From Polaribacter sp. BM10 (GTDB lineage: Bacteria > Bacteroidota > Bacteroidia > Flavobacteriales > Flavobacteriaceae): DNA of 64,000 bases. The DNA is taken from positions 2,562,001 to 2,626,000 of the forward strand of contig NZ_CP019704.1 in the NCBI RefSeq assembly GCF_002005425.1. Reading direction: 5' to 3'. Below the pieces are notes generated by a model. That model ran no database searches. It was not told the DNA's origin and saw only the letters and a program-made list of their open reading frames with translations. Shown here piece after piece: positions 44,693-48,202 of this stretch. Numbering within the stretch: position 1 is the first letter of the stretch; every line of letters begins with the position of its first letter. The translations under genes and the position numbers were made by a program.

Positions 44693-45664
44693 ATGTCTGT
44701 ATTAGAGCCTATTTTACAACCAAATGACAACCGTTTTGTAATTTTTCCTATCCAACACGATGATTTGTGGGAATGGTATAAGAAACAACAAGCTTGTTTT
44801 TGGACGGCAGAGGAAATTGATCTTACAGCAGATCTTGTAGATTGGACATCTAAGTTAACAGACGATGAGCGTTACTTTATAAAGCATATTTTAGCATTTT
44901 TTGCTGCATCAGACGGTATTGTAAACGAAAACTTAGCAGAAAACTTTGTAAACGAAGTACAATATTCTGAAGCTAAATTTTTCTATGGTTTTCAAATAAT
45001 GATGGAAAACATCCATTCTGAAACATATTCTTTATTAATAGATACTTATGTTAAAGATGAAGTAGAAAAAGACAATTTATTTAGAGCTATTGAAGTTTTT
45101 CCGGCAATTAAGAAAAAAGCAGATTGGGCATTAAAATGGATAGAATCTGATTCTTTTGCAGAGCGTTTAATTGCTTTTGCAGCAGTAGAAGGTATTTTCT
45201 TCTCTGGTGCATTTTGTTCAATTTTTTGGTTAAAGAAAAGAGGTTTATTACCAGGTTTAACATTTTCTAACGAATTAATTTCTAGAGACGAAGGTATGCA
45301 CTGTGATTTTGCGGTACACTTACACAATAATCACATGGTAAATAGAGTGCCAAAAGAGCGTATTTCAGAAATTATTGTAGACGCATTAAATATAGAACGT
45401 GAGTTTATTACAGAATCTTTACCAGTTAGTTTAATTGGTATGAATGCAAAATTAATGACTCAGTACTTAGAGTTTGTTACAGACAGATTGTTATTAGAAT
45501 TTGGATGAGACAAAGTTTACGATGTAACAAATCCTTTCGATTTTATGGAAATGATTTCTTTAGAAGGAAAAACTAATTTCTTCGAAAAAAGAGTATCAGA
45601 ATACCAAAAAGCTGGTGTAAAATCTGGTGGAACAGGAAGTATTAGTTTCGATTCTGATTTTTAA
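44693..45664 (+). CDS. nrdB: Ribonucleotide reductase class Ia beta subunit, with in-frame TGA
   Basis: The R2 subunit that holds the diiron-tyrosyl radical. Codons 1-271 give [17 protein letters not shown] (metal Asp region), [25 protein letters not shown] (ligands and radical Tyr), [12 protein letters not shown] and [15 protein letters not shown]. At codon 272 (45506-45508) the frame has TGA inside LLLEFG-*-DKVYDV. The same frame then continues 51 codons with conserved R2 sequence ([20 protein letters not shown]) and the R1-binding tail SISFDSDF, to TAA at 45662-45664. In relatives this site is usually Cys. Truncation at 271 residues would remove the tail needed for R1 contact. Sequencing error, a true nonsense change, or readthrough are possible. 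Confidence 0.93.
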
Positions 45665-45802: not shown

Positions 45803-48202
45803 ATGTTTGTACTAAAAAGAGACGGTAAAAAAGAGCCGGTGATGTTCGATAAAATCACGGCAAGAGTAAAAAAAATGTGCTACGGTTTAAATAAAATTGT
45901 AGATCCGGTAAAAGTTGCAATGCGTGTAATTGAAGGTTTATATGATGGTGTTACAACATCAGAATTAGATAATTTAGCCGCAGAAACTGCCGCTACAATG
46001 ACAACTGCACACCCAGATTATGCAAAATTAGCTGCAAGAATTGCTGTTTCTAATTTACATAAAAACACTAAAAAATCATTCTCTGAAACAATGGATGATT
46101 TGTATACTTATGTAAATCCTCGTACAAACAAAAAAGCGCCATTATTGGCAGATGAGGTATATAATATCATTAAAGAAAATGCAGAAAAATTAGATTCTAC
46201 TATTATTTACAATAGAGATTTTAATTATGATTATTTTGGTTTTAAAACATTAGAACGTTCATATTTATTAAAATTGAACGGTCAAATAGCAGAACGTCCA
46301 CAACACATGTTAATGCGTGTTTCTATTGGTATTCATAAAAATGATATTGATGAAGCAATTGCTACTTATGAGTTAATGAGTAAAAAATATTTTACACACG
46401 CTACACCAACTCTTTTTAACGCAGGTACACCAAAACCACAAATGTCTTCTTGTTTCTTATTACAAATGCAAGATGATAGTATCGAAGGTATTTACGATAC
46501 ATTAAAACAAACTGCAAAAATATCTCAATCTGCTGGTGGTATTGGTTTGTCTTTGCATAATATTAGAGCTACAGGTTCTTATATTGCTGGTACAAACGGT
46601 ACATCAAACGGTATTGTGCCAATGTTAAAGGTTTTTAATGATACTGCTCGTTATGTAGATCAAGGTGGTGGTAAGCGTAAAGGATCTTTTGCAATGTATC
46701 TAGAGCCTTGGCATGCAGATATTTTCGACTTTTTAGATTTAAAGAAAAACCATGGTAAAGAAGAAATGCGTGCTAGAGATTTATTCTATGCAATGTGGAT
46801 TTCTGATTTATTTATGAAACGTGTAGAGCAAGATGCAGATTGGACGTTAATGTGTCCTCATGAATGTCCGCATTTATACGATACTTATGATGAAGAATTC
46901 GAGCGTTTATACACAAGTTACGAGGCAGCTGGTAAAGGTAGAAAAACGATAAAGGCACGTGAGCTTTGGGAGAAGATATTAGAATCTCAAATCGAAACAG
47001 GTACGCCATATATGTTGTACAAAGATGCAGCAAACAGAAAATCGAATCAGAAAAATTTAGGTACAATTCGTTCTTCGAACTTATGTACAGAAATTATGGA
47101 GTACACAGCAGAAGATGAGGTTGCAGTTTGTAACTTAGCTTCTATTGCTTTGCCAATGTTTATTTCTGAAAGAGAAGGCGGAGAAAAATACTTTAATCAT
47201 AAAAAATTATACGACGTAACTAAAAAAGTAACACGTAATTTAGATACAGTAATAGATGCTAATTTTTATCCTGTTATAGAGGCAGAAAATTCTAATTTTA
47301 GACACAGACCAGTTGGTTTAGGTATACAAGGTTTAGCAGATGCATTTATACAATTGCGTTTACCTTTTACAAGTGATGAAGCCAAAAAGCTAAATCAAGA
47401 TATTTTTGAAACGATGTATTTTGCAGCTGTAACTTCTTCTATGGAAATTGCAAAAGCAAAAGAACCTTACTCTACTTTCGAAGGTTCTCCAATGTCTAAA
47501 GGAGAATTTCAGTTTAACATGTGGGGAATTAAAGATGATGAGTTAAGCGGAAACTGGGATTGGGCTAAGTTGCGTAAACAAGTAATGAAACACGGTGTAA
47601 GAAACTCTTTATTAGTTGCGCCAATGCCAACCGCATCTACTTCTCAAATATTAGGAAACAATGAAGCTTTTGAGCCTTATACATCTAACATTTATACAAG
47701 AAGAGTATTATCTGGTGAGTTTATTGTTGTAAACAAACATTTATTAGAAGACTTAGTAGAATTAGGTTTATGGGATAATGATATGAAAGAAAGTATAATG
47801 CGTGCAAACGGTTCTATACAACATATCGAAGAAATTCCTGCAGAATTAAGAGAGTTGTATAAAACTGTTTGGGAAATGAGTATGAAAGATATTATCGATA
47901 TGGCACGCCATAGAGGATACTTTATCGATCAATCTCAATCGCTAAACTTATTCTTAAAAGATCCAGACTATGGTAAATTAACTTCTATGCATTTCTATGC
48001 TTGGAAATCTGGCTTAAAAACAGGAATGTACTACTTAAGAACAAAATCTGCGGTAAATGCAATTCAGTTTACAGTTTCTAAAGAAAAGAAAGCACAAGTT
48101 ATAGAAGAAGAAAAACCAATGAGCGCTGCAGAATTTAAAGCAATGGTAGATGCTTCTAAAAACGGAGCACCAGACGACGATTGCTTAATGTGTGGTTCTT
48201 AA
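45803..48202 (+). CDS. nrdA: Ribonucleotide reductase class Ia alpha subunit
   Basis: A 799-residue R1 catalytic subunit. An N-terminal ATP-cone ([21 protein letters not shown]) is followed by the catalytic barrel: [77 protein letters not shown], and at the C-terminus CLMCGS with the redox Cys pair. It reduces ribonucleoside diphosphates to deoxy forms. It lies 138 bp after nrdB. The ATP-cone implies dATP feedback control. Confidence 0.96.

Follow-up and report, generated by a model that had tools for sequence, protein, structure and literature searches.

The window considered here, i.e., the whole stretch of 64,000 nucleotides from Polaribacter sp. BM10 that was analysed, carries the gene nrdB for the small subunit R2 of a class I ribonucleotide reductase (RNR), whose reading frame is interrupted by a TGA, and, 3′ of it, the large-subunit gene nrdA. 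In window coordinates the features of the locus are the following:

44693–45508, + strand: nrdB (class I RNR small subunit R2) up to the in-frame stop, an ORF of 271 amino acids with a PF00268 match
45506–45508, + strand: the TGA, codon 272 of nrdB, which is TGT in the same-species genome G033
45509–45664, + strand: conserved same-frame continuation of nrdB, 51 codons followed by TAA
45602–45604, + strand: codon for Tyr304 of nrdB, the Tyr of the C-terminal tail, lost on truncation
45803–48202, + strand: nrdA (large subunit), an open frame of 799 amino acids

The in-frame TGA is present in the assembled sequence as first described, and the description of the earlier note, according to which codon 272 is TGA with the same frame running on for 51 codons to the TAA that ends at 45664, is exact. 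Translation of 44693–45664 on the + strand with the TGA rendered as Cys yields a protein of 323 residues with the C-terminus SISFDSDF, and the PF00268 profile search of the BM10 genome scores nrdB at 362 bits against a cut-off of 33.6, reading through one internal TGA. The extension beyond the TGA is not a product of chance, since the same 51 residues are found, without a single replacement, in the protein of G033, where the site is TGT, and also align with the C-terminus of mammalian R2.

Indeed, the R2 encoded by G033 is identical over all 323 residues, the two nrdB genes differing at nine codons, eight of which are synonymous and the ninth of which is codon 272; behind the TGA there is one difference, the synonymous one at codon 307. 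A search of the genus with R2 gave matches at E ≤ 0.001 in 151 of 166 genomes and at E ≤ 1e-60 in 105, BM10 included; none of the other 104 genomes of this latter group has an internal stop in R2, BM10 alone having one, and the remaining 46 match more weakly, in most cases through a distant R2 some 428 amino acids long. The genus is therefore split with respect to R2, the nrdB type being carried by 105 of the 166 genomes and only the distant type by many of the others, with G147 and G151 carrying both. In the family, R2 is matched at E ≤ 1e-60 in 294 of 397 genomes and, among the matches listed, no internal stop occurs except that of BM10. The codon at the site was read in 112 of the 113 loci fetched (L178, having no anchor motif, was left out), a set that is partly redundant because some contigs appear under two identifiers (e.g., L004/L117, L008/L118 and L013/L119): TGT was found in 74, TGC in 36, CTT in one and TGA in one, namely BM10. 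The earlier statement that the position is usually occupied by Cys holds, with 110 of the 112 loci in accord. The in-frame TGA is thus private to the BM10 assembly among the genomes examined, and its being a trait of the lineage is ruled out by the TGT of the same-species genome, by the 104 genus genomes devoid of stop and by the prevalence of Cys.

Among the relatives whose codon was read, a residue other than Cys occurs in a single one, a flavobacterial metagenome-assembled genome (L162), in which CTT encodes Leu, so that the Cys can be replaced there; in addition, Phe is found at this position in the five PDB sequences listed, all of mammalian R2. As judged from these comparisons, the Cys of codon 272 is well kept yet not catalytic. 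R2 genes are also found in phages, the proteins of two Tenacibaculum phages (three records) being 81–83% identical to the host nrdB protein and those of two uncultured phage records of 636–642 kb being 68–69% identical to it; the similarity suggests that R2 genes may have been exchanged between phage and host.

A stop at codon 272 takes away 52 of the 323 residues of R2. The best 14 PDB matches all extend past the cut, ending at query residues 285–323, and the 271-residue product lacks the radical-transfer Tyr of the C-terminal tail; for Tyr304 to be present, the TGA must be either an error or bypassed by readthrough. From its place in the tail, Tyr304 would be the equivalent of E. coli Y356, the tail Tyr that is essential for radical transfer in class I RNRs according to PMC8463856. 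Since this Tyr is lost, the stop should be lethal if it is fixed and fully effective, there being no other R2 in the cell. A search within one library of papers found no case of an nrdB with a premature stop codon and, as judged by titles, no RNR with selenocysteine or an in-frame UGA.

What could then account for the TGA? The causes offered in the earlier note were an error in the base, the existence of another RNR and readthrough of the stop, either by near-cognate decoding or as selenocysteine; of these, the base error is the best-supported branch, whereas neither the second RNR nor selenocysteine withstood the analysis. If the TGA were real and dNTPs were provided by another RNR, the distant R2 of about 428 amino acids present in many congeners, and found together with the nrdB type in G147 and G151, would offer a precedent. 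However, the BM10 genome (3.25 Mb, one contig, 99.79% complete) yields in profile searches a single match to PF00268 (R2), a single match to PF02867 (large subunit; a profile that also matches the Thermotoga, Thermus and Haloferax controls, whose RNRs we take to be of class II) and no match to PF13597 (NrdD), so that the second enzyme would have to lie on a plasmid that was not assembled; this explanation is very improbable. The same can be said of an R2 that works in two pieces, in which the TGA would be real and translation would restart at an internal ATG to give the tail as a peptide of its own: in-frame ATG codons do exist behind the TGA, but the gene is whole in the relatives, the cut falls inside sequence carried by each of the best 14 PDB matches, and we know of no two-piece R2. 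That the TGA encodes selenocysteine has, finally, a negligible probability. As in selenoproteins, the UGA of nrdB falls where the relatives have Cys; unlike the genomes that make them, BM10 has no selenocysteine machinery scoring over the cut-offs. There is no match to SelA (control matches over the cut-off in 1 of 14), the seven matches to SelB are all below the cut-off (best 176.9 vs. 242.25 bits; controls over it in 2 of 14) and so are the five matches to tRNA-Sec (best 38 vs. 47 bits; controls over it in 5 of 14), which coincide with the Ser, Leu and Tyr tRNAs called by ARAGORN; an unassembled sel locus would therefore be needed. Selenocysteine is rejected on these grounds and because the site, at which mammalian R2 has Phe, is not catalytic. 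The structural results agree with this rejection and carry a weaker weight: the 100 nucleotides after the TGA fold with −10.8 kcal/mol and a z-score of +1.02, i.e., less stably than shuffled sequences, in a generic fold that is not a bacterial SECIS model, in keeping with the weak and unconvincing stem-loop reported earlier, and an Rfam search returned no element except one chance-level microRNA match on the opposite strand.

There remains the reading of UGA by the ordinary translational apparatus. The stops of 392 ORFs of at least 150 amino acids compared with G033 are TAA in 336 cases, TAG in 46 and TGA in 10, nrdB included; the nine other ORFs ending in TGA have TGA in G033 too and are followed by the next in-frame stop within 0–10 codons, whereas nrdB, the tenth, has TGT in G033 and 51 codons beyond. 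The RF2 gene prfB is over the cut-off in BM10 and in all five congeners searched, and the BM10 factor retains the SPF and GGQ motifs, one residue (compared by eye) distinguishing it from RF2 of G033. The prfB gene usually carries a programmed frameshift; in BM10 and the five congeners (L197–L202) it consists of a single open frame without internal stop, so that the frameshift seems to be absent in these six genomes. The 16S rRNA segments presumed, from their motifs, to lie around positions 1054 and 1200 look normal in the one operon inspected. None of the 36 tRNAs called by ARAGORN (30 tRNA loci and six further places) has a stop-reading anticodon (TCA, CTA or TTA), the initial scan having scored 150 of 320 candidates, so that a divergent tRNA could be missed. 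BM10 and G033 have the same tRNA-Trp, in which, numbered by eye, position 9 is A, position 24 is G and the anticodon stem has five pairs; it is thus free of the readthrough-promoting forms of this tRNA that are named in PMC13092985.

On account of these data a reassignment of TGA was rejected, RF2 being intact, tRNA-Trp ordinary, a TCA anticodon lacking among the 36 tRNAs and the nine other TGA ends being shared with G033; a suppressor tRNA was rejected in view of the 36 anticodons, save for a divergent one that the scoring of 150 of 320 candidates could miss; and no alteration of tRNA-Trp, RF2 or 16S rRNA (the last within the presumed motifs of one operon) was seen. UGA is reassigned to Trp in genetic codes 4 and 25, and the nrdB case resembles these systems in having an in-frame UGA inside a conserved gene; it differs from them in that BM10 possesses its own RF2, uses TGA as an ordinary stop, has no TCA anticodon among the tRNAs found, and in that its relatives have Cys, not Trp, at the site. 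With leaky UGA termination, i.e., near-cognate readthrough, the case shares an in-frame UGA that is followed by conserved protein sequence, but here the UGA is not conserved in any relative read, and tRNA-Trp and RF2 are without visible change. Nevertheless, the TGA might be real, recent and strain-specific, with enough full-length R2 coming from low-level readthrough of UGA, for which either an unseen suppressor or the near-cognate tRNA for Trp or Cys would be responsible. This possibility, which we regard as unlikely, is favored by the intact frame behind the TGA, where the sole difference from G033 is silent, by the scarcity of TGA, the least used of the three stops in the genes compared, and by the nature of the following base, which is G and not T, a +4U lowering readthrough according to PMC5289835. 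On the other hand, it is disfavored by the unchanged tRNA-Trp, by an RF2 with both of its motifs, by the normal appearance of the two 16S segments, by the want of a stop anticodon among the 36 tRNAs and by the lack of the TGA in any relative. Of the readthrough proposed earlier, the selenocysteine branch thus falls and the near-cognate branch draws no support from anything found. More doubtful still is the specific version in which the sole R2 would be made only through UGA readthrough by unmodified near-cognate tRNAs, competition by RF2 being perhaps weak where TGA is a rare stop.

By far the most probable reading is instead that the TGA is a wrong base in the assembly, due either to a consensus or base-call error or to a minority variant of the culture that was put into the consensus. 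The TGA is one base away from the TGT of G033, so that a single wrong base suffices to create it, and the presence of TGT in a strain of the same species makes an assembly error a much likelier explanation than a novel mode of decoding. The wrong base is further supported by the private nature of the TGA, by the identity of the protein encoded with TGT in G033, by the presence of a sole R2 and of no other RNR class, by the essential role of the tail Tyr that the stop would remove, by the Cys found in 110 of the 112 loci, and by the absence of selenocysteine machinery, of stop anticodons and of changes in RF2 or tRNA-Trp. The living strain would then carry a Cys codon at position 272 and make the full R2 of 323 residues; indeed, since a truncated sole R2 should not be viable, the growing cells would be expected to lack the TGA base. 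Single wrong bases are ordinary in finished genomes, and single-base consensus errors are known to break genes in finished bacterial genomes; the nrdB case is like these in that a private base, an intact frame, an essential single-copy gene and a normal same-species sequence occur together. It is unlike the case of poor long-read assemblies, in which many frameshifts are usual, no comparable abundance being seen in the 544 kb of the BM10 genome that were compared.

Against a wrong base it can be said that the assembly does not look rich in errors over these 544 kb and that BM10 has a second point nonsense. The 544 kb of BM10 aligned with G033 are 97.2% identical and show no flood of errors. 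Five of 381 G033 ORFs were flagged as disrupted in BM10, three by point nonsense and two with an indel, and, in the opposite direction, nine of 384 BM10 ORFs were flagged in G033, a single one of them by point nonsense and all the others because of an indel in the first 24 bases. In an outgroup-polarised comparison, confined to 30 genes and 51 kb by the small overlap of the G016 stretch, private nonsynonymous/synonymous changes numbered 13/186 in BM10 vs. 29/250 in G033; BM10 has therefore no excess of private nonsynonymous changes, and the idea of an error-rich assembly is not supported. The three point nonsense changes of BM10 are that of nrdB, one to TAA at residue 22 in the counterpart of a G033 ORF of 279 amino acids, and one to TGA at residue 8 of another ORF, which may in truth begin further downstream. 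In the second of these (L091, contig positions 2524353–2525192, about 37 kb before the start of the window) TTA has become TAA at codon 22 with the remaining frame intact; the C-terminal half of the encoded protein resembles what we take to be a LytTR-type DNA-binding domain. Real strain-specific nonsense changes may therefore occur in BM10 as well.

The nrdB TGA does not indicate a new system. If the wrong base is the correct explanation, the case is one for caution, in that an automatic pipeline would annotate nrdB as a broken gene although no other RNR was found in the genome. If, on the contrary, the TGA were real, the gene would be a natural gauge of the minimum readthrough that can be tolerated for an essential, single-copy bacterial enzyme.
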